A stretch of DNA of 64,000 bases from Streptomyces sp. NBC_00539 (lineage in GTDB: Bacteria; Actinomycetota; Actinomycetes; Streptomycetales; Streptomycetaceae). The notes below the pieces were generated by a model that worked only from the letters and a program-made list of their open reading frames with translations, ran no database searches and was not told where the DNA came from. This document shows positions 46,713 through 61,879 of the stretch, one piece after another. Position 1 is the stretch's first letter; each line of letters opens with the position of its first letter. The position numbers and the translations under genes were made by a program. The DNA lies in contig NZ_CP107811.1 in the NCBI RefSeq assembly GCF_036346105.1, positions 2,734,501 to 2,798,500 of the forward strand, in the 5' to 3' direction.

Positions 46713-47669
46713 TCAGCGTCGGCGCATGTCCGCCACCCGCCCCCGCTCCCTCTCCCCCGCCTGCTGCTCCAGCAGCCCGGCCGGCGCGCTGCGCAGCTGC
46801 GCCGTCGGACCGCCGCGGCGCTGCACCGGCAGGGGCGACTCGCGCCGGGGCCGGCGCCCCGCCATCCCGTCGCCGCCGGAGGCCGCCGCGCCGCCCGCCA
46901 CCGTGATCTGCACGCCCTGGTCGGCCAGCGCCTGGAGTTCGGTGGCGGCCCGGTCGTCGTGCGGGGGCGGCTCGTCGGTGACCAGCCGCGTCATGACGTC
47001 CGTCGGCACGGTCTGGAACATGGTGTCGGTGCCCAGCTTGGTGTGGTCGGCGAGGACCACGACCTCCGCGGCCGCCTGCACCAGCGCCCGGTCCACGCTC
47101 GCGGAGAGCATGTTGGACGTGGACAGCCCGCGCTCGGCCGTCAGGCCGCTCCCGCTCAGGAAGGCCCGCGATACCCGCAGCCCCTGGAGGGACTGCTCGG
47201 CGCCGCTGCCGACGAGCGCGTAGTTGGAGCCGCGCAGGGTCCCGCCGGTCATCACCACTTCGACCCGGTTGGCATGGGCCAGCGCCTGGGCGACGAGCAG
47301 CGAGTTGGTGACCACGGTCAGCCCGGGCACCCGCGCGAGCCGGCGGGCCAGCTCCTGGGTCGTGGTGCCCGCTCCGACGACGACGGCCTCGCCCTCTTCC
47401 ACGAGGGAGGCCGCCACGTCGGCGATGGCGGTCTTCTCCGCCGTCGCGAGATGGGACTTTTGCGGGAAGCCGGATTCACGGGTGAACCCGCCCGGCAGCA
47501 CCGCACCGCCGTGCCGGCGGTCGAGGAGTCCTTCTGCCTCCAGTGCCCGCACGTCCCGCCGTACGGTCACTTCGGAGGTCTGGACGACGCGGGCGAGCTC
47601 CCGGAGCGACACCGCTCCGTTGGCCCGCACCATTTCGAGGATCAATTGGCGACGTTCTGCAGCGAACAC
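46713..47669 (-). CDS. DeoR-family transcriptional regulator
   Basis: A 318-residue regulator. N-terminal helix-turn-helix: AAERRQLILEMVRANGAVSLRELARVVQTSEVTVRRDVRALEAEGLLDRRHGGA, the DeoR signature. The middle is the sugar-phosphate-binding DeoRC domain (GTTTQELARRL, VVTNSLLVAQAL, GGTLRGSNYALVG, DHTKLG). A ~70-residue Arg/Gly-rich tail is unusual. DeoR proteins sense sugar phosphates. It lies 2.4 kb from pnp; whether it binds the CTACGCGCGTAG box is untested. TACTGT ends 7 bases before GTG 47669 (leaderless). Confidence 0.9.
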   Translation of the reverse strand: MFAAERRQLILEMVRANGAVSLRELARVVQTSEVTVRRDVRALEAEGLLDRRHGGAVLPGGFTRESGFPQKSHLATAEKTAIADVAASLVEEGEAVVVGAGTTTQELARRLARVPGLTVVTNSLLVAQALAHANRVEVVMTGGTLRGSNYALVGSGAEQSLQGLRVSRAFLSGSGLTAERGLSTSNMLSASVDRALVQAAAEVVVLADHTKLGTDTMFQTVPTDVMTRLVTDEPPPHDDRAATELQALADQGVQITVAGGAAASGGDGMAGRRPRRESPLPVQRRGGPTAQLRSAPAGLLEQQAGERERGRVADMRRR

Positions 47670-49942: not shown

Positions 49943-50016
49943 GGCCCTTCCGCCCGGCAGGTGCCATTTCGGCGGAAACGACAAGGCAACGATCCGAACA
50001 CCGTGACCTGTGCCAT

Positions 50017-50028
50017 CTACGCGCGTAG
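50017..50028. promoter_or_regulatory. Nucleoside-catabolism operator CTACGCGCGTAG (pnp)
   Basis: A perfect 12-base palindrome preceded by AT, identical over 14 bases to the one in front of deoC (61589-61602). It would cover the -35 position for the -10 box TACGCT (50041-50046). Confidence 0.7.
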
Positions 50029-50040
50029 GCCAGGAACGGT

Positions 50041-50053
50041 TACGCTCGTCAGC
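50041..50053 (+). promoter_or_regulatory. -10 box of a leaderless pnp transcript
   Basis: TACGCT (50041-50046) followed by 7 bases and GTG 50054. No Shine-Dalgarno is present, so transcription probably starts at or next to the start codon. Confidence 0.55.
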
Positions 50054-50860
50054 GTGAACGCATCTGTTACCGACCCCTTCGCCGACGCCACCGCCGCGGC
50101 CGCCCGCCTGCGGGAGCTGACCGGCGCCGAAACCCACGATGTCGCCCTCGTCATGGGCTCCGGCTGGGCCCCCGCCGCAGAGGCGCTCGGTGCGCCCGAG
50201 GCCGAGTTCCCGGTCACCGAGCTGCCCGGCTTCCCGCCGCCCGCCGTGGAGGGCCACGGCGGCAAGATCCGCTCGTACAAGATCGGCGACAAGCGCGCGC
50301 TGCTCTTCCTCGGCCGGACCCACTTCTACGAGGGCCGCGGCGTCGCCGCCGTCGCCCACGGCGTCCGTACCGCCGTCGCCGCCGGCTGCAAGACCGTCGT
50401 GCTGACCAACGGCTGCGGCGGCCTGCGCGAGGGCATGAAGCCCGGCCAGCCGGTCCTGATCAGCGACCACCTCAACCTGACGGCCACCTCGCCGATCGTC
50501 GGCGCCAACTTCGTGGACCTCACCGACCTCTACTCGCCGCGCCTGCGCGCGCTGTGCAAGGAGATCGACGAGACCCTCGAAGAAGGCGTCTACGTCCAGT
50601 TCCCCGGCCCGCACTACGAGACCCCGGCCGAGATCAACATGATCCGCGTCATGGGCGCGGACCTGGTCGGCATGTCCACCGTCCTGGAGGCCATCGCCGC
50701 CCGTGAGGCCGGCGCCGAGGTGCTGGGCATCTCCCTGGTCACCAACCTGGCGGCGGGCCTGTCCGGCGAGCCGCTGAACCACGAAGAGGTGCTCCAGGCC
50801 GGCCGTGACTCGGCCTCGCGCATGGGCAAGCTGCTGACCCAGGTCCTCGCCCGCATCTGA
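50054..50860 (+). CDS. pnp: Purine nucleoside phosphorylase (trimeric type)
   Basis: A 268-residue phosphorylase that splits purine (deoxy)nucleosides to base and (deoxy)ribose-1-phosphate. Features: [57 protein letters not shown], and the base-binding [18 protein letters not shown] (Glu and Met); NHEEVL near the end. It starts at GTG 50054, and an upstream in-frame ATG is outside the promoter. Products feed the phosphosugar mutase next door and DeoC. Confidence 0.92.
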
Positions 50861-50888
50861 GGACCGTACGAGAGGTAAGGCGGAAGTA

Positions 50889-52538
50889 GTGCAGGAAGTG
50901 CAGGACGACCTGATCACCCGGGCCCGGGCGTGGCTGGCCGAGGACCCGGACCCGCAGACGGCGGCCGAACTGGGCGAGCTCATCGAGGCCGGCGACACGG
51001 CGGAACTCGCCGACCGCTTCTCCGGCATGCTGCAGTTCGGCACCGCCGGACTCCGCGGCGAGCTGGGCGCGGGCCCGATGCGGATGAACCGCGCCGTGGT
51101 CATCCGGGCCGCGGCGGGCCTCGCCGCCTACCTCAAGGCCCAGGGCCACGCCGGCGGCCTGGTCGTCGTCGGCTACGACGCGCGGTACAAGTCGGCGGAC
51201 TTCGCCCGTGACACCGCGGCCGTCATGACCGGCGCCGGTCTGCGCGCGGCCGTCCTGCCCCGCCCCCTGCCGACGCCCGTCCTCGCGTACGCCATAAGGC
51301 ACCTGGGCGCCGTCGCCGGCGTCGAGGTGACCGCGAGCCACAACCCGCCCCGGGACAACGGCTACAAGGTCTACCTCGGCGACGGCTCCCAGATCGTCTC
51401 CCCGGCGGACGCCGAGATCGCTGCGGAGATCGAGCGGATCACCACCCTCGACTCCGTGCCCCGCCCCGAGTCCGGCTGGGAAGACCTCGGCGACGAGGTC
51501 CTGGAGGCCTACCTGGCGCGTACGGACGCCGTCCTGACCCCCGGCTCCCCCCGGGGCGTGCGGACCGTCTACACGGCCATGCACGGCGTCGGCAAGGACG
51601 TCGTGATGGCCGCCTTCGCCCGGCACGGCTTCCCCACCCCGGTCCTGGTGGCCGAGCAGGCGGAACCGGACCCGGCCTTCCCGACGGTCGCCTTCCCCAA
51701 CCCGGAGGAGCCGGGCGCGATGGACCTGTCCTTCGCGAAGGCGGCCGAGGTGAACCCGGACATCGTCATCGCCAACGACCCGGACGCCGACCGCTGCGCG
51801 GTGGCGGTCCCGGACGACGGCGCCTGGCGGATGCTCCGCGGCGACGAGGTCGGCGCGCTCCTGGCCGCCCACCTGGTCCACAAGGGCGCCCGCGGCGTCT
51901 TCGCCGAGTCCATCGTCTCCTCCAGCCTCCTGGGCCGGATCGCGGACGCGGCGGGCCTCCCCTACGAGGAGACGCTCACCGGCTTCAAGTGGATCTCCCG
52001 CGTCGAGGGCCTGCGCTACGGCTACGAGGAGGCGCTCGGCTACTGCGTGGACCCCGAGGGCGTCCGCGACAAGGACGGCATCACCGCCGCCCTCCTGATC
52101 GCCGAACTCGCCTCGGAGCTCAAGGAGCAGGGCCGCACCCTGAGCGACCTGCTGGACGACCTGGCGATGGCCCACGGCCTGCACGCCACCGACCAGCTGT
52201 CGGTACGGGTCTCGGACCTGTCGGTCATCGCCTCCGCCATGGCCGCCCTGCGCGCGCAGCCTCCGGTGTCCCTGGCGGGCCTGCGGGTCACCTCGGCGGA
52301 GGACCTCAGCCACGGCACGCAGTCCCTGCCCCCCACGGACGGCCTGCGCTACTACCTGGAGGGCGACTACCGGGCCCGCGTGATCGTCCGCCCGTCGGGC
52401 ACGGAGCCGAAGCTCAAGTGCTACCTGGAGGTCGTGGTCCCGGTCTCCGAGGCCTCCGACCTCACCTCGTCCCGCACCCGCGGCCAGGAGATCCTCGACG
52501 CCGTCAAGAAGGACCTCTCCGCCGCGATGGGCCTCTAG
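50889..52538 (+). CDS. pmmB: Phosphomannomutase/phosphopentomutase-type phosphosugar mutase
   Basis: A 549-residue alpha-D-phosphohexomutase. Catalytic loop GVEVTASHNPPRDNGYKVY (phosphoserine in TASHNP), metal loop NDPDADRCAV, sugar-binding GDEVGAL, and the phosphate-binding RPSGTEPKLKCYLEV at the C terminus. Its tight linkage to pnp (28-base gap) favours use as a phosphopentomutase for (deoxy)ribose-1-phosphate, but its family includes phosphomannomutases and glucomutases. GTG 50889; terminated by a 14-bp hairpin. Confidence 0.88.
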   Translation: MQEVQDDLITRARAWLAEDPDPQTAAELGELIEAGDTAELADRFSGMLQFGTAGLRGELGAGPMRMNRAVVIRAAAGLAAYLKAQGHAGGLVVVGYDARYKSADFARDTAAVMTGAGLRAAVLPRPLPTPVLAYAIRHLGAVAGVEVTASHNPPRDNGYKVYLGDGSQIVSPADAEIAAEIERITTLDSVPRPESGWEDLGDEVLEAYLARTDAVLTPGSPRGVRTVYTAMHGVGKDVVMAAFARHGFPTPVLVAEQAEPDPAFPTVAFPNPEEPGAMDLSFAKAAEVNPDIVIANDPDADRCAVAVPDDGAWRMLRGDEVGALLAAHLVHKGARGVFAESIVSSSLLGRIADAAGLPYEETLTGFKWISRVEGLRYGYEEALGYCVDPEGVRDKDGITAALLIAELASELKEQGRTLSDLLDDLAMAHGLHATDQLSVRVSDLSVIASAMAALRAQPPVSLAGLRVTSAEDLSHGTQSLPPTDGLRYYLEGDYRARVIVRPSGTEPKLKCYLEVVVPVSEASDLTSSRTRGQEILDAVKKDLSAAMGL

Positions 52539-52594
52539 CCCCTCTCGTCCGGATCCTGCCTGACCGGCACGATCCGGAAGAGACGGCCCAGCCC

Positions 52595-52625
52595 GAAGAG
52601 CCCCGCCCACCGGGCGGGGCTCTTC
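52595..52625. terminator. 14-bp hairpin terminator after pmmB
   Basis: Stem 52595-52608 with 52612-52625 and an ACC loop, between pmmB and the convergent afsQ3-like gene. Confidence 0.75.
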
Positions 52626-52695
52626 CACGTGCACACGGTCCCACCGGCGAGGACCGGACACCCACCCACCGGGCCGGGGACGGGTGGGGCCCGCC

Positions 52696-53361
52696 TCAGG
52701 ACGCGCTCGGCGTCGGTCTCACCACGTCCCCCAGCGTCGGCACCGACTCCGGCCTGGAGCGGACGGCGTCACTGCACTCCCACGCCCTCGGCGGATCCGC
52801 ATCCGGCCCGCCCAGAACCACCGGCCCCGGCCCCGCCGACACCGCCTCGCTCTCCGCCAGCGTGCACACGATCTGCGACAGCGCCACCGGCGGAAGGTCC
52901 TCCGGCTTGCGGCTCAGCCGCACCGTCCCCGCCGGGTCACCCGGCCGCGTCGGCGCCGCCGAGAGCCCGTCCGGCACCCCGGTGGTGAATCCGGCGTCCC
53001 GCTCCTGCGCCGACGGCTCCCGCTCCAGCGCCTCCAGCAGCGCCTGCGCCGCCAGCACCACCGGGTCGCGCGCCGGCCGCTTCTCGGGCACGGGGACCAC
53101 CCGTTCCACGCCCACCAACTGCGACCCGCACACCAGCTCCACCGTGGCCCGGAACCCCGGCACCCCGCTCGGCTGCTGCCCGCTCGGCTGCGCCGGGGTG
53201 TCGCACGACACCCGCGACGGCGCCGCGCCCACGTCCACCGGCACGGTCGTCGCCCGGATCCCGCAGCCCCCCGCGCCGACCGCCGTCACGGCCGCCACCA
53301 GCAGCAGCCCCGTCATCCGCACCGCGCCACGTACCGTGCCGCGCCCCGCCCTACGCCTCAC
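52696..53361 (-). CDS. AfsQ3-like lipoprotein
   Basis: A 221-residue lipoprotein: a signal peptide with lipobox region VGAGGC (Cys33), then a Pro/Ser-rich linker and a ~120-residue outer domain with four more cysteines (VSCDTP, VCGSQL, IVCTLAE, WECSDA). It overlaps afsQ2 by 11 bases. In S. coelicolor a lipoprotein gene (afsQ3) occupies this place and is thought to modulate sensing by AfsQ2. The signal sensed is not known. Confidence 0.8.
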   Translation of the reverse strand: MRRRAGRGTVRGAVRMTGLLLVAAVTAVGAGGCGIRATTVPVDVGAAPSRVSCDTPAQPSGQQPSGVPGFRATVELVCGSQLVGVERVVPVPEKRPARDPVVLAAQALLEALEREPSAQERDAGFTTGVPDGLSAAPTRPGDPAGTVRLSRKPEDLPPVALSQIVCTLAESEAVSAGPGPVVLGGPDADPPRAWECSDAVRSRPESVPTLGDVVRPTPSAS

Positions 53362-54844
53362 CGGCGATCACCTTCCCCACGTCCACCGGCAGCCGCAGTG
53401 TGAACAGCGCCCCGCCCCCGCTGCCGTTGGCGGCCGTGATGTCGCCGCCGTGGATGTGCGCGTTCTCCCTCGCGATGGACAGGCCCAGCCCGCTCCCGTC
53501 CGACTTCGGCCGGGACGCGCTCGCCTTGTAGAACCGGTCGAAGACGTGCGGCAGCACCTCCTCCGGAATGCCCGGACCGTTGTCCTTGACCGCGATCAGC
53601 AGCCACTCCCCCTCCACCCGCACCGACACCCGCACCGGCGAGCCGCCGTGCTTGAGCGCGTTGCCGATGAGGTTGGCCAGGATCACGTCGAGCCGCCGCG
53701 GGTCCAGCCGCACCACGATCCCGCGCTCCGCGTCGAGTTCCACGGCGTCGAGCCACGCCCGCGCGTCGATGCAGGCCGTGACCTGGTCGGCGACGTCCAC
53801 GTCGTCCAGTACGAGGCGCGCCGTCCCCGCGTCGAAGCGGGTGACCTCCATCAGGTTCTCCACCAGGTCGTTCAGCCGCCGGGTCTCGCTGACCACCAGC
53901 GCCACCGCCGGTGCGATCATCGGATCGAGGTCGTCGACCTCCTCCTCCAGCACCTCGGCGACCGCCGTCAACGCCGTCAGCGGCGTCCGCAGTTCGTGCG
54001 ACATGTCCGCGACGAAGCGCCGACTGGCCTCCTCCCGGGCGCTCATGTCGGCGACCTTCTTCTCCAGCGCCTCCGCCGTCTTGTTGAAGGTGTGCGACAG
54101 GTCGGCGAGCTCGTCGGTCCCCGACACGTCGAGCCGGTGGTCCAGTTCGCCCTCCCCGAGCCGCCGCGCCGCGTCCCCCAGCCGTTGTACGGGCTTGAGC
54201 ACGGTCCGGGCGGCGGCCTGCGCCAGCAGCGCGGAGCCGAGCAGCGCGAGACCCGTCGCGATGGTCAGCGACCAGCCCAGCGCGTTGAGGTCGTCGCGTT
54301 CCTGCGCGAGCGACTTGTACATGTAACCCGTCGGGCCGCCGCCCACGATCCGTGTCCCGCCCACCAGGTACGGGTTGCCGCGCGGCTTCGTGCGCTGCCA
54401 GTACATGTGGTACTCGGCGTCGTTGGCGGCCGTCGTCTTCTGTCGGTCGTTCACTGCGTGCTGGAGGGATGCGGGTACGTCGTCCAGCCCGAAGGAGTCG
54501 GGGCCGGCCGCGCCGAACACCTTGCGGCCGTTCTTGAGTTCGTCCACCAGCAGCACGCTGTACCCGGGGCTGCTGCCCGCCATCAGCTCGGCGGTGCGCT
54601 GCAACTCCTCGGGGGTCGGGTCGGCGGGCAGCGCCGCGGCCCGGTTCTGCATCTCCTGCCGGAAGTCGCCGAGGGCCGCGTCCTGGGTACGGGTGAGCAC
54701 CGCCTCGCGGTTGAGCCAGTAGGCGATCCCGGAGGCGGACACGGCGGCCGTCAGCGCGACGAGGGCGAACACGACGAGGAGCCGCAGCCGCAGACTGGTC
54801 CAGCGCCGGCCCGCGAACACGCCCCGCACGAACTGCTTGGTCAC
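53351..54844 (-). CDS. afsQ2: Sensor histidine kinase AfsQ2
   Basis: A 497-residue membrane kinase: helix 1 (20-42), an outer sensor domain (43-190), helix 2 (~190-212), HAMP (KPVQRLGDAARRLG), dimerisation domain with phospho-acceptor His283 in FVADMSHELRTPLTAL, and ATPase boxes ILANLIGNALKHG, DNGPGIPEE and GSGLGLSIA. It phosphorylates AfsQ1, encoded upstream with a 4-base overlap (ATGA). In S. coelicolor AfsQ1/Q2 acts on antibiotic synthesis and nitrogen use when glutamate is the nitrogen source. Confidence 0.92.
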   Translation of the reverse strand: MTKQFVRGVFAGRRWTSLRLRLLVVFALVALTAAVSASGIAYWLNREAVLTRTQDAALGDFRQEMQNRAAALPADPTPEELQRTAELMAGSSPGYSVLLVDELKNGRKVFGAAGPDSFGLDDVPASLQHAVNDRQKTTAANDAEYHMYWQRTKPRGNPYLVGGTRIVGGGPTGYMYKSLAQERDDLNALGWSLTIATGLALLGSALLAQAAARTVLKPVQRLGDAARRLGEGELDHRLDVSGTDELADLSHTFNKTAEALEKKVADMSAREEASRRFVADMSHELRTPLTALTAVAEVLEEEVDDLDPMIAPAVALVVSETRRLNDLVENLMEVTRFDAGTARLVLDDVDVADQVTACIDARAWLDAVELDAERGIVVRLDPRRLDVILANLIGNALKHGGSPVRVSVRVEGEWLLIAVKDNGPGIPEEVLPHVFDRFYKASASRPKSDGSGLGLSIARENAHIHGGDITAANGSGGGALFTLRLPVDVGKVIAGEA

Positions 54845-55518
54845 TGCGGGGAGTCCAGGCGGTAGCCGACGCCGCGGACCGTACGGATCAGCGTGGGCGA
54901 GGACGGGACCTCCTCGACCTTCGCGCGCAGCCGCTGCACGCAGGCGTCGACGAGGCGCGAGTCACCGAGGTAGTCGTGCTCCCAGACCAGGCGCAGCAAC
55001 TGCTGCCGCGACAGGGCCTGGCCGGGCCTGCGGCTGAGCTCCAGCAGCAGGCGCAGCTCGGTCGGGGTGAGTTGGAGGTCGTCGCCGTTCTTCGTCACCG
55101 TCATGGCGGCGCGGTCGATGACCAGGGACCCGAACACGGCGGAGTCACTGGCCTCGCGTTCGCCGCGGCGCAGCACGGCCCGGATCCGGGCGTCGAGCAC
55201 CCGGCCCTGGACGGGTTTGACAACGTAGTCATCGGCTCCGGACTCCAGCCCGACCACCACGTCGATGTCGTCGCTGCGCGCGGTCAGCAAGATGATCGGC
55301 AGCTGGTCGGTGCGCCGGATCCGCCGGCACACCTCGAAGCCGTCGATCCCGGGCAGCATCACGTCCAGCACGATCAGGTCCGGCCGCTGCTCGCGCAGCA
55401 GTTTCAGGCCGTCCTCGCCCGTCGCCGCGGTGGCCACACGGTGGCCCTGGCGGGACAGGGAGAGTTCGAGGGCCGTGCGGATGGCGTCGTCGTCCTCGAT
55501 CAGCAACAGGAAAGGCAC
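54841..55518 (-). CDS. afsQ1: Response regulator AfsQ1 (OmpR/PhoB family)
   Basis: A 225-residue regulator: receiver domain starting VPFLLLIEDDDAIRT, phospho-acceptor Asp in DLIVLDVMLPGIDG, conserved Thr and Lys in LTARSDD and YVVKPV; winged-helix DNA-binding domain from ~130 (LTPTELRLLLELSRRPG, RLVDACVQRLRAKVE, IRTVRGVGYRL). I start at GTG 55518 because it gives the family length; ATG 55536 is possible. It overlaps afsQ2. The divergent sigQ and the intergenic AfsQ1 box confirm the locus. Confidence 0.95.
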   Translation of the reverse strand: MPFLLLIEDDDAIRTALELSLSRQGHRVATAATGEDGLKLLREQRPDLIVLDVMLPGIDGFEVCRRIRRTDQLPIILLTARSDDIDVVVGLESGADDYVVKPVQGRVLDARIRAVLRRGEREASDSAVFGSLVIDRAAMTVTKNGDDLQLTPTELRLLLELSRRPGQALSRQQLLRLVWEHDYLGDSRLVDACVQRLRAKVEEVPSSPTLIRTVRGVGYRLDSPQ

Positions 55519-55588
55519 GGGCTCATTCTGTCCCATCGGCCGTCGGGACTCGACCGTCCGTCGTACGGGGACGCGGACGCGGGCCGCT

Positions 55589-55604
55589 GTGACAGGGCTG
55601 TGAC
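55589..55604. promoter_or_regulatory. AfsQ1-binding box GTGAC-N6-GTGAC
   Basis: GTGACAGGGCTGTGAC matches perfectly the published S. coelicolor AfsQ1 consensus GTnAC-N6-GTnAC. It lies in the afsQ1-sigQ intergenic region, 85 bases before the sigQ ATG, as expected for direct control of sigQ by AfsQ1. Confidence 0.85.
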
Positions 55605-55688
55605 AGTCGCAGGACACCGCGGTTAAGTCGGCGGGGCAGGCTTCTACCAGAGACGGACCGAAGCAGACTCCACGACGGGGGGCGCGAG

Positions 55689-56381
55689 ATGAACACGCTG
55701 CACAGCACCACGACCAGCGCGGTCGTCACGCGGCTGCACGATGCGAACCGCCGGGCGGGTGTCCGTACGGCGACGGTCGCCCGTCAGCGGCCGACGCATC
55801 CTGTAGCCATTGACGCGAACACGTACCAGGCGGTTCCCGCCCCGCGACTTCCTTCCGCCTCGGAGGCGGAATTCACGGCGTACGTGCAGGAACGCCGGGC
55901 CGCGCTGTACGCGACGGCGTTCCACCTCACCGGCGACCGGTACGAGGCGGAGGACCTGCTGCAGAGCGCGCTGTTCTCGACGTACCGGGCGTGGGACCGG
56001 ATCAGCGACAAGGCGGCCGTCGGCGGGTACCTGCGGCGCACGATGACGAACCTGCACATCAGCGCGTGGCGTCGGCGGAAGCTGAACGAGTACCCGACGG
56101 AGGAGCTGCCGGAGACGGCCTCGGACACGGACGCGATGCGGGGTACGGAGCTGCGGGCGGTGCTGTGGCAGGCGCTGGCCCGGATCCCGGAGCCGCAGCG
56201 GACGATGCTGGTGCTGCGGTACTACGAGGGCCGCACGGACCCGGAGATCGCGGAGATCCTGGGCATCAGCGTCGGCACGGTGAAGTCCAGCATCTGGCGG
56301 TCGCTGCGGCGGCTGCGCGAGGACGACGCCCTGAGCTTCGGCCGGGACGAGGCGGAGTCCTTCGGGGAGCTCGTCGCCTGA
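55689..56381 (+). CDS. sigQ: RNA polymerase sigma factor SigQ (SigE family)
   Basis: A 230-residue ECF-like sigma factor. Residues 1-55 are a low-complexity extension; region 2 is at about 58-130 (EFTAYVQERRAALYATAFHLTGDRYEAEDLLQSALFSTYRAWDRI), region 4 at ~150-210 (LARIPEPQRTMLVLRYYEGRTDPEIAEILGISVGTVKSSIWRSLRRLR). The gene is divergent from afsQ1, as for S. coelicolor sigQ, which opposes antibiotic production there. An AfsQ1 box lies in its promoter. Confidence 0.92.
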   Translation: MNTLHSTTTSAVVTRLHDANRRAGVRTATVARQRPTHPVAIDANTYQAVPAPRLPSASEAEFTAYVQERRAALYATAFHLTGDRYEAEDLLQSALFSTYRAWDRISDKAAVGGYLRRTMTNLHISAWRRRKLNEYPTEELPETASDTDAMRGTELRAVLWQALARIPEPQRTMLVLRYYEGRTDPEIAEILGISVGTVKSSIWRSLRRLREDDALSFGRDEAESFGELVA

Positions 56382-56440
56382 CGAAGACCATCGGGCCGAG
56401 GGGGCCCGTCCTACGGGGGTGGGGCGGGGGCCGCGGGGGG

Positions 56441-56486
56441 AAGAGGCGGGATCAAGCGGTCGGGGGTCCGCATGATCCCGCCTCTT
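56441..56486. terminator. 14-bp stem terminator after sigQ
   Basis: AAGAGGCGGGATCA (56441-56454) pairs with TGATCCCGCCTCTT (56473-56486) across an 18-base loop. Confidence 0.65.
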
Positions 56487-56540
56487 CGCATGCGCGGCGA
56501 CGTTCGGGGCGCGGATCCGGGCCTCACGGGGCGACCCCGG

Positions 56541-56930
56541 CCAACCCCAGCCCCGTCGGCGTTTGAGGCGCGGGGTCTGGGGCCTCACCGGGCCAACCCC
56601 GGCCAACCCCAGCCCCGCCGGCGTTTGAGGCGCGGGGTCGGGGGCGGAGCCCCAGGAAACCCGGCTCCGCCGGGCACCGGGCTCTGCCCGGACCCGCGCC
56701 TCAAACGCCGGCGAGGCTGAAAGTTACGCCCCCGGCACCGGGAAGCCAGGCCGGTGGGGCTGAAAGTTTGCCCCCGGCACCGGGAAGCCGAAGGCCGGTG
56801 GGGCTGGGTTGGCCCGGCCCGGCGCCCCGAACCCCAGCGGGGCTGGAGTTGGCCCGGTCCGCTCCTCAAACGCCCGCGAGGCTGCGAGTTGCGCCCCCGG
56901 CACCGGGAAGCCGAAGGCCGACGGGGCTGG
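56541..56930. repeat. Cluster of Streptomyces intergenic repeats
   Basis: Two direct copies of a ~40-bp element ending GGCGTTTGAGGCGCGGGGT (56541-56580, 56601-56640), two inverted copies (56691-56720, 56857-56890), and three copies of a ~42-bp element containing GCCCCCGGCACCGGGAAGCC (56720-56762, 56763-56806, 56886-56929). No gene is credible here. Such GCCGGCGTTTGAGG elements are scattered through streptomycete genomes. Confidence 0.75.
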
Positions 56931-57026
56931 TGCGGCGCGGCGGAGCCGTGAAGTGCACGGGGGCGCAGGCGCGAGGAGAACGCGGGCGGTGGCGCAGGGG
57001 GGCCGAGCAAACCCCCCGGCCAGGGG

Positions 57027-57659
57027 TTAGGCGGGGGCTGCCGTGCGGTGGCGGCCCGCCGCGCAGGCAGCCAGGCGGCCGAGCGCCTCGTCGCGGGCGC
57101 AGGCGTACGCGCCGAGCGCGGTGTGCCGGGCCACGATGCCCCGCTCCGCCCGCATCAGCCGCCAACCCCTGCGCAGCAGGAACGGCACCGACTTGCGCCC
57201 CTCGCGCAGATCCCGCGCCAGCCGCCGGCGGAACGTCGTCGACGGCCGCCCCCGCAGGCAGATCGCGTCCGCCAGCAGCCCCAGCTCCTGGCACCGGGCC
57301 ACGATGTCGGCCGCGAAGATCCCCTCCGCGATGAACAGCGGCGTCCGGGCGATGTCCAGCGTCTCCGACCCCGTCCGCGAGGACGTCGCGATGGAGTACA
57401 CCGGCACCTCGGTACGCCCCTCCCCGCACAGTTCCGCGATCGCGGCGACCGCCGCCTGCGCGTCCCACGACAGCGGCGAGTCCCAGTCGATGTCGGAGCT
57501 GCCCTCCACCAGCGGCAGCGTCGGGTCGTCGCCCTCCTTGTAGAAGTCGTCCAGGCGCAGCACGGGCAGGCCCGAGCGGGCCGCGAGCGAGGACTTGCCG
57601 GAGCCCGAGGGCCCGGTCAGCAGGACGACGCGCGTGGGGAGGGGGGAGGAGGAGCTCAC
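57027..57659 (-). CDS. Uridine kinase-like P-loop protein
   Basis: A ~210-residue cytoplasmic kinase-like protein: Walker A LTGPSGSGKSSLAA, LRLDDFYKEGDDPTLP (the substrate/metal DDFY motif of uridine kinases), PLFIAEGIFAADI (Walker B-like), and an Arg-rich lid (FRRRLARDLREGRKS). It may phosphorylate a nucleoside. Start uncertain: GTG 57659 is given; GTG 57686 adds nine residues. In S. coelicolor a similar gene neighbours sigQ. Confidence 0.75.
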   Translation of the reverse strand: MSSSSPLPTRVVLLTGPSGSGKSSLAARSGLPVLRLDDFYKEGDDPTLPLVEGSSDIDWDSPLSWDAQAAVAAIAELCGEGRTEVPVYSIATSSRTGSETLDIARTPLFIAEGIFAADIVARCQELGLLADAICLRGRPSTTFRRRLARDLREGRKSVPFLLRRGWRLMRAERGIVARHTALGAYACARDEALGRLAACAAGRHRTAAPA

Positions 57660-57718
57660 GGGACACCAGTTTGAGTCCTCCCCCACGAAAAAACAAAAGG
57701 GGAGCTCCGGCCCACGCG

Positions 57719-57746
57719 CCCTGACGGCCCTACCGGTCCGTCAGGG
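57719..57746. promoter_or_regulatory. Hairpin CCCTGACGG/CCGTCAGGG in the gap before the 57865 gene
   Basis: A 9-bp stem (57719-57727 with 57738-57746) in the 205-base divergent intergenic region. Could be an operator or an upstream regulatory element; not at a gene end. Confidence 0.35.
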
Positions 57747-57864
57747 GAGGAGGTCTCCACGAACGAGTGACCTCAGCGGCTCCGGGATCCGGCGGGTTGG
57801 TGTCCGGCACGCCACCTCAACTACGCTGCGTGCGCACGCGACTACGACCTCAGGCGGGATCCCC

Positions 57865-58215
57865 ATGGCACGTCACGCAGCCCCCGGCAGCTCCACGCTG
57901 CGCTCCGCAGGCATCACGCTCTCCATGGCCGGTGCGGCCCTGGCCATGGCCGCCGGCGGCGCCCAGGCGGGCGAACTCTCCGTCCCGGCGGCCCTGGCCG
58001 GCGTCACCGACCCGATCGCGAACCTCAAGGTGAACCCGCTCGCCCACACCGGCGTGGACCCCCTCGACAACGGCGTGGGCACCAAGGTCGCGGACTTCCC
58101 GGCGGTCGGCACCACCATGGTCACCGGCATCCTGACCCAGGGCCCCTCGGTCGGTGAACTGCCCACCGCCGCCGCGGGCTCGCTCCTCGGCCCGCTGCTG
58201 CCCGGAGCGAAGTGA
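57865..58215 (+). CDS. Small secreted protein
   Basis: A 116-residue protein with a clear signal peptide (MARHAAPGSSTLRSAGITLSMAGAALAMAAGGAQA, cleavage after AQA), and a ~80-residue mature part (LAGVTDPIANLKVNPLAHTGVDPLDNGVGTKV...), Gly/Pro/Thr-rich with no cysteines. No enzyme motif. This class of short secreted streptomycete protein has no settled function. It is followed by a bidirectional hairpin. Confidence 0.75.
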   Translation: MARHAAPGSSTLRSAGITLSMAGAALAMAAGGAQAGELSVPAALAGVTDPIANLKVNPLAHTGVDPLDNGVGTKVADFPAVGTTMVTGILTQGPSVGELPTAAAGSLLGPLLPGAK

Positions 58216-58221
58216 CACGAA

Positions 58222-58254
58222 GGCCCCGGCAGCGCGGGGGACGCTGCCGGGGCC
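58222..58254. terminator. 13-bp hairpin between convergent genes
   Basis: GGCCCCGGCAGCG (58222-58234) pairs with CGCTGCCGGGGCC (58242-58254). Confidence 0.75.
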
Positions 58255-58269
58255 GGTTCGCGAGTGCCC

Positions 58270-59166
58270 CTAGTACGAGGAGCCGGACGCGCCCAGCGAA
58301 CCCGTGGGGTGCCAGACCGTCTTGGTCTCCAGGAACGCCGTCATGCGCGACGTGCCCGGGTCGGCGGTCCAGTCGTCCACAGGCTGTGGACGCAGGACGC
58401 GCTTGAGGTTGTCGGCCGCGGCGATCTCCAGCTCCTTGGCAAGCGCCGCGCCGGCGCCCGCCAGGTCGATCGCGTTGACGTCCTGGTGGGACGCCAGGTG
58501 CGGGCCCATCTCGGCGGCCTTGCCGGACAGGATGTTGACCACGCCGCCGGGCAGGTCGGACGTCGCCAGCACCTCGCCCAGCGAGAGGGCGGGCAGCGGG
58601 GACTTCTCCGAGGCGATCACCACGACCGTGTTGCCCGTGGCGATGACCGGCGCGATCACCGAGACCAGGCCCAGGAACGACGAGTCCTGCGGGGCGACGA
58701 CGGTGACGACACCGGTCGGCTCCGGCGTGGACAGGTTGAAGAACGGACCCGCGACCGGGTTGGCGGCTCCCACGACCTGGCCGATCTTGTCGGTCCAGCC
58801 CGCGTACCAGACCCAGCGGTCGATGGCCGCGTCCACGACGGCGGCGGCCTTCACCTTGGACAGGCCCTCCGCCTCGCGGACCTCGTGGACGAACTGCCCG
58901 CGGCGGCCCTCCAGCATCTCGGCGATGCGGTAGAGGATCTGGCCGCGGTTGTACGCGGTCGCGCCCGCCCAGCCGCCGAAGGCCTTGCGCGCGGCGACGA
59001 CCGCGTCACGGGCGTCCTTGCGGGAGGACAGGGGGGCGTTGGCCAGCCACTTGCCGTTGGAGTCCGTCACCTCGTACACCCGGCCGCTCTCGGAGCGGGG
59101 GAACTTGCCCCCGACGTACAGCTTGTAGGTCTTGAAGACGTTCAGACGCGTGGTCGTCTCAGACAT
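58270..59166 (-). CDS. Aldehyde dehydrogenase-fold protein lacking the catalytic region
   Basis: A 298-residue protein similar to the N-terminal NAD-binding half of aldehyde dehydrogenases (YKLYVGGKFPRSESG, NAPLSSRKDARDAVVAARKAFGGW, TPEPTGVVTVVAPQDSSFLGL, VIATGNTVVVIASEKSPLPAL) but ending just where the catalytic Glu and Cys would follow. Its start codon overlaps the stop of the complete ALDH gene by 8 bases (ATGTCTGA). The pair resembles ALDH16, a single protein in animals and some bacteria with a catalytic ALDH domain followed by a Cys-less one; here it is two ORFs. The truncation looks regular, with no frameshift remnant. Confidence 0.8.
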   Translation of the reverse strand: MSETTTRLNVFKTYKLYVGGKFPRSESGRVYEVTDSNGKWLANAPLSSRKDARDAVVAARKAFGGWAGATAYNRGQILYRIAEMLEGRRGQFVHEVREAEGLSKVKAAAVVDAAIDRWVWYAGWTDKIGQVVGAANPVAGPFFNLSTPEPTGVVTVVAPQDSSFLGLVSVIAPVIATGNTVVVIASEKSPLPALSLGEVLATSDLPGGVVNILSGKAAEMGPHLASHQDVNAIDLAGAGAALAKELEIAAADNLKRVLRPQPVDDWTADPGTSRMTAFLETKTVWHPTGSLGASGSSY

Positions 59167-60601
59167 CGAGGTAAGCCTCCAGGCCGTGGCGACCGCCCTC
59201 GCGGCCGAAGCCCGACTCCTTGTAGCCGCCGAAGGGCGAGGTCGGGTCGAACTTGTTGAACGTGTTGGCCCACACCACACCCGCGCGGAGCTTGTTCGCG
59301 ACCGCGAGGATGCGCGAGCCCTTCTCCGTCCAGATGCCGGCGGACAGGCCGTACTGGCTGTTGTTGGCCTTCGCCACGGCCTCGTCGGGCGTACGGAAGG
59401 TCAGTACGGACAGCACCGGGCCGAAGATCTCGTCGCGGGCGACGGTGTGCGCCTGGGTGACGTTGGTGAACAGCGTCGGGGCGAACCAGTAGCCGGAGGA
59501 CGGCAGCTCGCACGCCGGGGACCAGCGCTCGGCGCCCTCGGCCTCGCCGGTGTCGGCGAGCGCGGTGATCCGGGCCAGCTGCTCGGCGGAGTTGATCGCG
59601 CCGATGTCGGTGTTCTTGTCGAGCGGGTCACCGAGGCGCAGCGTCGAGAGGCGGCGCTTGAGGGAGTCCAGCAGCTCGTCGTGGATCGACTCCTGGACCA
59701 GCAGGCGCGAGCCCGCGCAGCAGACCTGGCCCTGGTTGAAGAAGATGCCGGTGACGATGCCCTCGACGGCCTGGTCGATGGGGGCGTCGTCGAAGACGAT
59801 GTTGGCGCCCTTGCCGCCCAGCTCCAGGGTGACCTTCTTGTCGGTGCCGGCGACGTGGCGGGCGATCTTCTTGCCCACCGCCGTGGAGCCGGTGAAGGCG
59901 ACCTTGTTGACGTCGGGGTGCTCGACGAGGGCCGCGCCCGCGTCGCCGTACCCCGTGAGGATGTTGACGACGCCCTTGGGCAGACCGGCCTGGCGGCAGA
60001 TGTCCGCGAAGAACAGGGCGGACAGCGGGGTGGTCTCGGCGGGCTTGAGGACGACCGTGTTGCCGGTGGCGAGCGCGGGGGCGATCTTCCACGCGAGCAT
60101 CAGCAGCGGGAAGTTCCACGGGATGACCTGGCCGGCCACGCCGAGCGGGCGCGGGTTCGCGCCGTAGCCGGCGTGGTCGAGCTTGTCGGCCCAGCCCGCG
60201 TAGTAGAAGAAGTGCGCGGCGACCAGGGGGAGGTCCGCGTCGCGGGTCTCCTTGATCGGCTTGCCGTTGTCCAGGGTCTCCAGGACGGCCAGCTCGCGGC
60301 TGCGCTCCTGGATGATCCGGGCGATGCGGAAGAGGTACTTGGCGCGCTCGGAGCCCGGCAGCGCGGACCACTTCTCGAAGGCCTTGCGGGCGGCCTTGAC
60401 GGCGCGGTCGACATCGGCGGCGCCGGCCTGGGCGACCTCGGAGAGGACTTCCTCGGACGACGGCGAGACGGTCTTGAAGACCTTGCCGTCGGCGGCGTCG
60501 GTGAACTCGCCGTCGATGAAGAGGCCGTAGGAGGGGGCGATGTCGACGACCGAGCGGGACTCGGGGGCCGGCGCGTACTCGAAGGGGGAAGGCTTGTTCA
60601 T
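59159..60601 (-). CDS. Aldehyde dehydrogenase (catalytic subunit)
   Basis: A 480-residue NAD-dependent ALDH. Motifs: GLFIDGEFTDAADGK, VIPWNFPLLMLAWKIAPALATGNTVV, KPAETTPLSAL, GSTAVGKKI, the catalytic Glu in TLELGGKGAN and the catalytic Cys in FFNQGQVCCAGSR; EIFGPVLSV and PFGGYKESGFGREGG near the end. It begins 7 bases after deoC's stop, so in this operon it is well placed to oxidise the acetaldehyde released by DeoC to acetate. Confidence 0.92.
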   Translation of the reverse strand: MNKPSPFEYAPAPESRSVVDIAPSYGLFIDGEFTDAADGKVFKTVSPSSEEVLSEVAQAGAADVDRAVKAARKAFEKWSALPGSERAKYLFRIARIIQERSRELAVLETLDNGKPIKETRDADLPLVAAHFFYYAGWADKLDHAGYGANPRPLGVAGQVIPWNFPLLMLAWKIAPALATGNTVVLKPAETTPLSALFFADICRQAGLPKGVVNILTGYGDAGAALVEHPDVNKVAFTGSTAVGKKIARHVAGTDKKVTLELGGKGANIVFDDAPIDQAVEGIVTGIFFNQGQVCCAGSRLLVQESIHDELLDSLKRRLSTLRLGDPLDKNTDIGAINSAEQLARITALADTGEAEGAERWSPACELPSSGYWFAPTLFTNVTQAHTVARDEIFGPVLSVLTFRTPDEAVAKANNSQYGLSAGIWTEKGSRILAVANKLRAGVVWANTFNKFDPTSPFGGYKESGFGREGGRHGLEAYLDV

Positions 60602-60608
60602 GAGGGTC

Positions 60609-61577
60609 TCAGTCCACCGTCACGTAGTCGGGACCGGAGTAACGCCCGGTGCTCAGCTTCTGGCGCTGCATCAGCAGGTCGTTGAGCAGGCTGGAGGCGC
60701 CGAAGCGGAACCAGTGGTTGCTCAGCCAGTCCTCGCCCACGGTCTCGTTGACCAGGACCAGGAACTTGATCGCGTCCTTGGTGGTGCGGATGCCGCCGGC
60801 CGGCTTCACGCCGATCTGGATTCCAGTCTGCTCCTTGAAGTCGCGTACGGCTTCGAGCATGAGCAGGGTGTTGGCGGGGGTGGCGTTGACGCCGACCTTG
60901 CCGGTGGAGGTCTTGATGAAGTCGGCGCCCGCGAGCATGCCGATCCAGGAGGCGCGGCGGATGTTGTCGTAGGTCGACAGCTCGCCGGTCTCGAAGATGA
61001 CCTTCAGCCGGGCGGCGCTGCCGTCCTCTCGGACGCACGCCTCCTTGACGGCCTTGATCAGCTCGTACGTCTCCAGGTAGCGGCCGGCGAGGAAGGCGCC
61101 ACGGTCGATGACCATGTCGATCTCGTCGGCGCCGGCGGCGACGGCGTCCCGGGTGTCCGCGAGCTTGACGGGCAGGGCGGCGCGGCCGGCCGGGAAGGCG
61201 GTCGCGACGGACGCCACCTTGACGTCGGCGCCGTTCAGGGCGGCCTTGGCGGTGGCCACCATGTCCGGGTAGACGCAGACCGCGGCGGTCATGGGCGTCG
61301 TCCGGTCGGTCGGGTCGGGGTTGACGGCCTTGGCGGAGAGCGCCCGCACCTTGCCCGGGGTGTCCGCACCCTCAAGCGTGGTCAGGTCGATCATCGAGAT
61401 GGCCAGGTCGATGGCGTACGCCTTGGCCGTCGTCTTGATCGAGCGGGTGCCGAGGGAGGCCGCGCGGGCCTCCAGTCCGACTGCGTCTACGCCGGGCAGC
61501 CCGTGCAGGAAGCGGCGCAGCGCACTGTCGGACGTCGTCACGTCAGCGAATGCGGTGAGGGTGGTGGGCATGGTCAC
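60609..61577 (-). CDS. deoC: Deoxyribose-phosphate aldolase
   Basis: A 322-residue class I aldolase splitting 2-deoxyribose-5-phosphate into glyceraldehyde-3-phosphate and acetaldehyde. Seen: AAVCVYPDMV, DEIDMVIDRGAFLAG, LKVIFETGELSTYD, FIKTSTGKVGVNATPANTLLM (Schiff-base Lys in K-T-S-T-G-K) and KPAGGIRTTKDA. I place the start at GTG 61577 (VTMPTT) rather than ATG 61571: TATGCT (61584-61589, minus strand) ends 6 bases before it, giving a leaderless mRNA. First gene of a deoC-ALDH-ALDH' operon; the CTACGCGCGTAG operator abuts its -10. Confidence 0.92.
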   Translation of the reverse strand: MTMPTTLTAFADVTTSDSALRRFLHGLPGVDAVGLEARAASLGTRSIKTTAKAYAIDLAISMIDLTTLEGADTPGKVRALSAKAVNPDPTDRTTPMTAAVCVYPDMVATAKAALNGADVKVASVATAFPAGRAALPVKLADTRDAVAAGADEIDMVIDRGAFLAGRYLETYELIKAVKEACVREDGSAARLKVIFETGELSTYDNIRRASWIGMLAGADFIKTSTGKVGVNATPANTLLMLEAVRDFKEQTGIQIGVKPAGGIRTTKDAIKFLVLVNETVGEDWLSNHWFRFGASSLLNDLLMQRQKLSTGRYSGPDYVTVD

Positions 61578-61583
61578 CAGATG

Positions 61584-61602
61584 AGCATATCTACGCGCGT
61601 AG
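61584..61602 (-). promoter_or_regulatory. deoC promoter: -10 box and operator CTACGCGCGTAG
   Basis: The operator (61591-61602) directly adjoins the -10 TATGCT (61589-61584 on the minus strand), so bound protein would block the promoter. It is identical to the pnp element. Confidence 0.7.
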
Positions 61603-61879
61603 CGACATGTCACCCCCCGCCGGTGCACATCTGTGCGCGGCCTCCCGCATCCGGGCACGGCGGGCGTCCGGCCGCAGACCACCCTGCGGACCGCTGACCT
61701 CCGCTTTTGCTGTTACACGGCACGGACACAAACCCCACCGTCCGGTCGCACAAGATCCGTAAATTTCTCTTCAGCAGCCCGCCAGACCTCACCGGATGAA
61801 AGCCTCGGCAGAGAACCCGTAGAGAAAAAGGGGCATGCGACTCTCCCACCTTCCCGCGACAATGCTTCCTGGAGTCGTT
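61603..61879. other. Intergenic region between deoC and the surface-protein gene
   Basis: About 280 bases with no convincing gene. It is richer in A+T than its surroundings (61740-61835) and holds the divergent promoter for the 61880 gene, preceded by AGAGAAAAAGGGG. Confidence 0.45.

Follow-up and report, generated by a model that had tools for sequence, protein, structure and literature searches.

Which protein reads a palindrome that is shared by the promoters of two nucleoside genes, and how far does the use of that palindrome extend? The question is raised by a 64,000-nucleotide stretch of Streptomyces sp. NBC_00539 (contig NZ_CP107811.1, positions 2,734,501 to 2,798,500; hereafter the window), in which one exact copy of the 12-bp palindrome CTACGCGCGTAG lies ahead of pnp, encoding purine-nucleoside phosphorylase, and another ahead of deoC, encoding deoxyribose-phosphate aldolase. 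A first-pass annotation had reported the enclosing 14-mer ATCTACGCGCGTAG at both places (starting at 50015 and 61589), had seen no third full palindrome in the window, and had proposed the shared operator of a nucleoside regulon. Our scan of the window agrees, with two exact copies, four two-mismatch matches and no third exact copy, and both gene names hold, as the two proteins score above their NCBIfam cut-offs. The proposed regulon is likewise borne out by conservation in genus and family genomes. As far as genome comparison can tell, CTACGCGCGTAG is a conserved nucleotide-scavenging operator, and with a probability of roughly 0.84 it would be the operator of a LacI-family factor encoded outside the window at C1:3301674-3302702.

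In the 7.5-Mb genome of NBC_00539, we observe four exact copies of CTACGCGCGTAG, all within 31 kb, and none of the reversed pattern. The probability that four random places would all fall inside 31 kb is about 3e-7. All four copies precede nucleoside genes, namely pnp, deoC, an adenosine deaminase gene (add; family confirmed, with the site 16 bp ahead of the ATG) and the ATPase gene of a PnrA-type ABC transporter. The transporter cluster comprises this ATPase, two permeases, cytidine deaminase (cdd) and thymidine phosphorylase (deoA), with a Bmp-type binding lipoprotein encoded upstream, and we infer nucleosides as the transported substrate. A scatter of hits through unrelated promoters or coding sequence, named beforehand as grounds for giving up the regulon, is therefore not what the exact copies display. 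One mismatch is found at 12 further places (20 for the reversed control), five of which precede nucleotide genes: deoA, a 5'-nucleotidase gene, an NCS2-type purine permease gene, a pyrimidine operon and purSQL. The remaining places are located at an ABC solute-binding lipoprotein gene, in the vicinity of an rpoB-like gene, at L104, at 6557165 (unread) and, in three cases, in or near coding sequence (L101-L103). The pyrimidine operon encodes a carbon-nitrogen hydrolase in a run with a dihydropyrimidinase that scores over its cut-off; the hydrolase, which matches N-carbamoylputrescine amidase only below cut-off, is presumably a beta-ureidopropionase. Among the targets beyond the window that had been anticipated, deoA, cdd, add and a nucleoside-type transporter are thus all present at sites of the genome, and rbs genes were not recognised at any of the sites read.

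The palindrome is conserved throughout the genus, where 150 of 150 genomes contain two to six exact copies (573 in total versus 69 for the reversed control), and at least one exact copy is present in 60 of 61 genomes of the family Streptomycetaceae, covering 16 of 17 genera. The lone exception, genome G445, displays degenerate copies at deoC (CTACGCGAGTAG) and pnp (CTACGCGCGTTA). When promoters were taken by place, in genomes chosen after their copy numbers had been seen, 9 of 9 pnp and 5 of 5 deoC promoters keep the site with zero to two mismatches, and the same holds for 50 of 50 pnp upstream regions compared, most of them fetched through the motif. Outside the family, exact copies were recovered from 10 of 268 genomes of the class, one of which (G233) has three; these copies are unexplained or probably due to chance.

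The position of the operator relative to the core promoter is also kept. At deoC, we observe a sigma-70-like promoter (GTGACA, 18 nt, TATGCT) whose spacer encloses the palindrome, in line with the earlier statement that this site touches the -10 element, and TGTACA or TGACA-like hexamers occupy the -35 place in several relatives. The deoC operator shows zero or one mismatch in 16 of 16 sequences and is directly followed by ATATGCT in 15 of them, NBC_00539 included in both counts, so that operator and core promoter are locked together. At add, a TAGAGT -10 element comes 4 nt after the operator in 10 of the 12 sequences shown. At pnp, TACNCT is found approximately 12 nt past the operator in 12 of the 12 sequences shown, again including NBC_00539. 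By eye, TACGCT (50041-50046) can be read as the corresponding -10 element, which would place the palindrome over the -35 region as the first-pass annotation had stated; a consensus promoter scan returned no match there. Taken together, the geometry at deoC, add and pnp fits a repressor occluding RNA polymerase.

LacI-family proteins bind short palindromes with a C/G centre, and CTACGCGCGTAG is such a short palindrome, its two halves meeting at a central C and G. In the NBC_00539 genome, 15 matches to the LacI helix-turn-helix (HTH) domain are observed, and among the 13 that were compared only the protein of C1:3301674-3302702 contains the recognition-helix signature AVVSYV-N-GPR. Its membership in the family is clear from matches to PF00356 (49 bits) and Peripla_BP_3 (108 bits), each exceeding its cut-off. 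The gene, which we take to be of the SCO4158 type, lies directly after a gene with a GlnR domain and 8.4 kb from the 5'-nucleotidase site. Its order after glnR agrees with the SCO4158 neighborhood in PMC9739823. Homologs are present in all 61 family genomes (66-100% identity) and in all 28 genus genomes of the class set, and at 37-45% identity in 20 of 268 other-family class genomes. The helix signature is found in 49 of 49 family LacI proteins read, as well as in the protein of G445, and the DNA-binding part is 93-100% alike in these 49 members.

An association between this helix and the palindrome is also observed far outside the family. Scanning genome contigs for TCTACGCGCGTAGA yielded at least 119 loci from many phyla, and in 37 of those listed a LacI-family gene is encoded (called by phmmer, E up to 1e-10). 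Among the matches listed, 36 of these 37 motif-linked LacI genes encode AVVSYV-N-GPR, with AVVTYS in the 37th, and in 35 of 37 loci the gene starts downstream of the site; at L254 the site falls inside an over-extended open reading frame start, and of the two sites at L299 one is located 128 bp upstream of the LacI gene. The lineages comprise Enterobacterales, Pseudomonas, Kibdelosporangium, Rothia, Arthrobacter, Microbacteriaceae, Propionibacteriaceae and Chloroflexi. All six proteobacterial loci read display the site followed by an MFS transporter, the LacI gene and a nucleoside hydrolase, to which Pseudomonas adds a further gene; the one hydrolase tested scores over the IU_nuc_hydro cut-off. 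Arthrobacter and Rothia encode a PfkB/ribokinase-type gene between site and LacI. Compared with the 37 operator-linked proteins, the NBC_00539 LacI averages 73% likeness over residues 4-60 and 31% over the remainder, versus 43% in the DNA-binding part and 26% in the rest for its 12 paralogs in the same genome. A DNA-binding part shared together with the operator, next to a diverged ligand domain, is as expected if the helix reads the palindrome. In G233, the sole other-family class genome with three copies, a LacI gene with AVVSYV-N-GPR is located between two of the sites.

In the mechanism we propose, a LacI dimer would bind the palindrome within or beside the -35 and -10 elements that serve pnp, deoC, add and the nucleoside transporter, and block RNA polymerase. 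Nucleosides or their product, when present, would make LacI release the operator, and uptake, deamination, phosphorolysis and deoxyribose-phosphate cleavage would then be switched on together, along with the one-mismatch targets 5'-nucleotidase, purine permease and the pyrimidine-degradation operon. LacI binding, repression rather than activation and the nature of the inducer are all predictions drawn from sequence.

Several observations weigh against assigning the operator to this LacI. Its own promoter contains only a half-site, GCGTAGACT, at the -10 element and no full operator (a result equalled by 2 of 200 control palindromes), and the uniqueness of the helix covers 13 of the 15 LacI matches, with L401 and L411 outside the comparison. 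Among the loci listed in the TCTACGCGCGTAGA scan, 82 of 119 are without a visible LacI gene, although some stretches are short and many are probably chance, and the genes at the G233 sites are not recognisably nucleoside genes. Of the 20 other-family class genomes that encode a LacI homolog, just 1 contains exact copies. In 20 LacI loci from 19 such genomes (the weak-hit genome G285 set aside), near-copies with up to two mismatches, none exact, were found in 7 versus 11 for the reversed control, whereas the helix signature is present in 17; the signature alone thus does not predict the operator. L506 (G232) has a helix almost identical to that of NBC_00539, yet no near-copy. Furthermore, the near-copy at deoA is kept in only 3 of 13 sequences (one or two mismatches, NBC_00539 included), and the inducer of the operator-linked LacIs is not transferable, since the ligand domain is only 31% alike. 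Other-family helices often differ beside the signature (TSPAVVSYVLN, AGVS, TNDGPR), and well-formed, AT-flanked near-palindromes are located upstream of LacI homologs at L510:4341-4352 (CTAAGCGCATAG), L509:5642-5653 (CTACGCGGGTAG) and L507:1754-1765 (CTACACGAGTAG), which may represent operators of this LacI subgroup that have diverged. The missing full autoregulatory site, the differing ligand domains and the helix without operator in other families would also suit a different regulator reading the motif in the family, with LacI being a mere relative with a similar DNA-binding part. We regard this as improbable, since the DNA-binding part, nearly invariant in the family, is still 60-81% alike to that of operator-linked LacIs of other phyla, and the helix signature is seen in none of the 12 other LacI proteins aligned from the genome.

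The candidate regulator of the first-pass annotation was instead the DeoR-family protein of the window. On this rival reading, DeoR would bind the palindrome, repress, and respond to deoxyribose-5-phosphate as Escherichia coli DeoR does. That E. coli DeoR controls the same pathway speaks for it, as do a distance of 2.4 kb from pnp, conservation of the gene in 61 of 61 family genomes, and its presence with pnp on the same 20-kb stretch in nine family genomes read (approximately 11 kb apart in one). However, its own promoter is without an operator, and none of 57 deoR upstream regions contains one with up to two mismatches. Outside the family nothing was seen that ties DeoR to the motif, against 36 motif loci that carry the LacI helix. 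Of 25 other-family class genomes encoding a DeoR homolog, 24 have no exact copy (the exception being G253), which is weak evidence because LacI homologs of other families are mostly without a site too. The four closest other-family DeoR loci (L195-L198; 66-70% identity, similar HTH) lie beside sugar ABC transporters, and the DeoR of the window may for this reason be a sugar regulator. In a network inference from 2010, SCO4920 was connected with sigma-factor genes and genes of development (PMC3224704). We consider DeoR an unlikely reader, if marginally less so than the unnamed regulator above; the first-pass annotation had allowed for any other regulator, and the LacI-family protein accounts for the motif better. 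That the copies are a chance repeat, or have a structural or restriction role and no regulatory one, is more improbable by far: base composition does predict 0.8 copies per 7.5 Mb (approximately 0.007 per 64 kb), but four copies stand in 31 kb at functionally linked promoters, the motif recurs in nearly all genera sampled, and the same operator variant is kept in orthologous promoters.

Features of the window, with positions counted from its first nucleotide
Feature	Position	Strand	Evidence or remark
DeoR-family regulator gene	46713..47669	-	candidate of the first-pass annotation; unlikely reader of the operator
pnp operator CTACGCGCGTAG	50017..50028	none	overlaps probable -35 region
Probable pnp -10, TACGCT	50041..50046	+	12 nt past operator; by eye from sequence
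pnp, purine-nucleoside phosphorylase	50054..50860	+	GTG start; NCBIfam TIGR01698, 332 bits (cut-off 302.6)
Phosphomannomutase-type gene	50889..52538	+	downstream of pnp; all 7 NCBIfam matches below cut-off
Aldehyde dehydrogenase gene	59159..60601	-	directly after deoC; 25 matches shown, all below cut-offs
deoC, deoxyribose-phosphate aldolase	60609..61571	-	ATG at 61571; NCBIfam TIGR00126, 178.6 bits (cut-off 117.3)
deoC -10, TATGCT	61584..61589	-	promoter scan and comparison with relatives
deoC operator CTACGCGCGTAG	61591..61602	none	within -35/-10 spacer
deoC -35, GTGACA	61608..61613	-	promoter scan

Two further genes of the window could share these promoters. The phosphomannomutase-type gene is possibly cotranscribed with pnp and presumably acts as a phosphopentomutase, and the aldehyde dehydrogenase gene probably belongs to the deoC operon. 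Upstream of the latter, the best operator match has four to five mismatches in 17 of 17 sequences, so that it is without an operator of its own. As control genes, deoR, lpdA, pmm and aldh give no operator signal in their upstream regions.

In relatives, the weaker sites of NBC_00539 are conserved to different degrees, as observed in upstream regions of the permease, hydrolase, 5'-nucleotidase and deoA genes that were gathered mostly by protein or place. The purine permease displays the operator with one mismatch in 22 of 28 regions (paralogs included; the NBC_00539 region itself was found by the one-mismatch search), and the pyrimidine-degradation hydrolase displays a near-copy in 18 of 30, a set of 30 in which L094 and L224 had been reached via the motif or by place. 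The 5'-nucleotidase variant of NBC_00539, CTACGCGCGTTG, is present in 7 of 7 usable relatives of the 8 regions asked, L432 being unusable; the NBC_00539, L021 and L045 regions came through the motif, giving 10 regions on which the comparison with controls was run. In the permease, hydrolase and 5'-nucleotidase sets alike, none of 200 control palindromes equalled the operator. The same asymmetry is seen in 21 of the 22 permease operators, mostly as TCTACGCGCGGAGAT and in some cases with A or C as the altered base; this asymmetry points to selection for weaker binding or to a further use of the sequence. A MarR gene located 0.4 kb past the purine permease gene (L215:11091-11528) was considered as a regulator and dropped once the link to LacI appeared.

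Retrieval went via the motif, or beside it, for most or all loci of pnp, add, the transporter, purN and the lipoprotein, and their counts are consequently not independent. Motif-found sites with zero or one mismatch precede purN at seven loci (L083, L084, L164, L166, L167, L169, and L176) and purS at two, with L247 as a third (L056, L100, L247), which suggests that in some lineages purine synthesis is controlled as well as salvage. A second add gene (L024, L026, L034, L055, and L173) has an exact copy over its predicted start that may be coding, because it lies inside the reading frame. In one genome, a site lies ahead of the gene for a secreted protein (L159) that by eye resembles an ExeM-like nuclease, its only Pfam match being a sub-threshold lamin-tail domain. 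Copies at L023, L067, L073, L092 and L155, as well as one ahead of a Cof-type HAD gene in a single genome (L018), have no clear explanation or are probably chance.

We also note three side observations. Exact copies are found ahead of similar secreted proteins in four genomes of genus g127 (L079, L163, L168, and L171), the protein of L168 showing a putative Ig domain as well as a carbohydrate-binding match below threshold. The binding lipoprotein gene beside the transporter displays an asymmetric near-operator of its own, CTACGCGCGTTA, in six of seven loci (L007, L188, L156, L193, L070, and L161), which had been fetched for the neighboring site. Finally, the transporter ATPase gene (C1 ~2815057, minus strand) has an apparent noncanonical ATC start, GGAGAGTGCG(T/C)CATC, kept with the ATC in frame in 16 of 16 sequences, NBC_00539 included; among 12 sequences with a visible in-frame upstream stop, 5 have no in-frame ATG, GTG, TTG or CTG.

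A broader role is possible, and we put it forward tentatively and at less than even odds: LacI as the master regulator of nucleotide scavenging across Streptomycetaceae, covering a secreted nuclease in some genomes, 5'-nucleotidase, the uptake of nucleosides and purines, deamination, phosphorolysis, deoxyribose-phosphate cleavage and pyrimidine-base degradation, plus de novo purine synthesis (purSQL, purNH) in several lineages. If true, LacI would be the functional counterpart of PurR in the lineages with purSQL/purNH control and would tie purine supply to DNA and RNA recycled from dying mycelium. Independently of this broader role, the proposed LacI operator would explain how the bacteria, in which lysis of mycelium feeds development, switch nucleoside recycling as a unit. 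A little-understood regulator found in every family genome compared here (61 of 61) would gain a concrete operator and a list of candidate targets, and an operator/recognition-helix pair that is found in several phyla with a changed ligand domain is useful for reading LacI specificity.

The Streptomyces coelicolor gene SCO4158 is, like the LacI gene of NBC_00539, a LacI gene directly downstream of glnR, and it has been suggested as a possible regulator of glnR (PMC9739823). Elsewhere it has been called a ccpA gene and its constitutive promoter put to use (PMC4365011), it is tabulated with SCO4920 among regulators subject to carbon catabolite regulation (PMC4848846), a predicted ArgR site precedes it (PMC5839063), and read-through into SCO4157 is possible (PMC3878966). 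The literature searched, namely listings and main-text passages of largely open-access papers, yielded neither a CTACGCGCGTAG operator nor nucleoside targets of SCO4158.

Among known systems, PurR, CytR, UriR, AdeR and HpxR are alike in combining a LacI fold with control of nucleoside or purine genes, and PurR/CytR-type regulators bind palindromic operators with a C/G centre. The NBC_00539 LacI scores far below the NCBIfam model cut-offs for PurR (NF007979; 179.9 bits, cut-off 501), CytR (NF008269; 168 bits, cut-off 436) and UriR (NF051853; 116 bits, cut-off 550), as well as for RbsR (NF047341; 190.5 bits, cut-off 382). According to PMC4052901, AdeR, HpxR and UriR control nucleoside utilization, and CytR responds to cytidine and adenosine. 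In Bifidobacterium, the ribose-type LacI-family repressors RbsR2 and RbsR3 have been recruited to ribonucleoside hydrolase and transporter genes, with an operator, TGATAAAACGTTTTATCA, that differs from CTACGCGCGTAG (PMC4746261). Closest to the system described here are the transporter-LacI-nucleoside hydrolase operons of Pantoea, Serratia, Pluralibacter, Cedecea, Providencia and Pseudomonas, which encode the same helix signature and are preceded by the same 14-bp palindrome, TCTACGCGCGTAGA. These operons may correspond to the RihR group of RegPrecise. Their LacI, with a ligand domain approximately 31% alike to that of NBC_00539, is a local regulator of one operon, whereas the Streptomycetaceae protein would control several operons of phosphorolytic salvage. 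The E. coli DeoR regulon (deoCABD, nupG, tsx) is alike in the joint switching of DeoC, DeoA and a nucleoside phosphorylase together with a nucleoside transporter, and differs in the regulator family and in the operator. Since LacI-family nucleoside regulators are known and our search found no earlier operator or nucleoside regulon for SCO4158, we regard the system as an addition to this known kind of LacI regulator, one with a wide predicted regulon.

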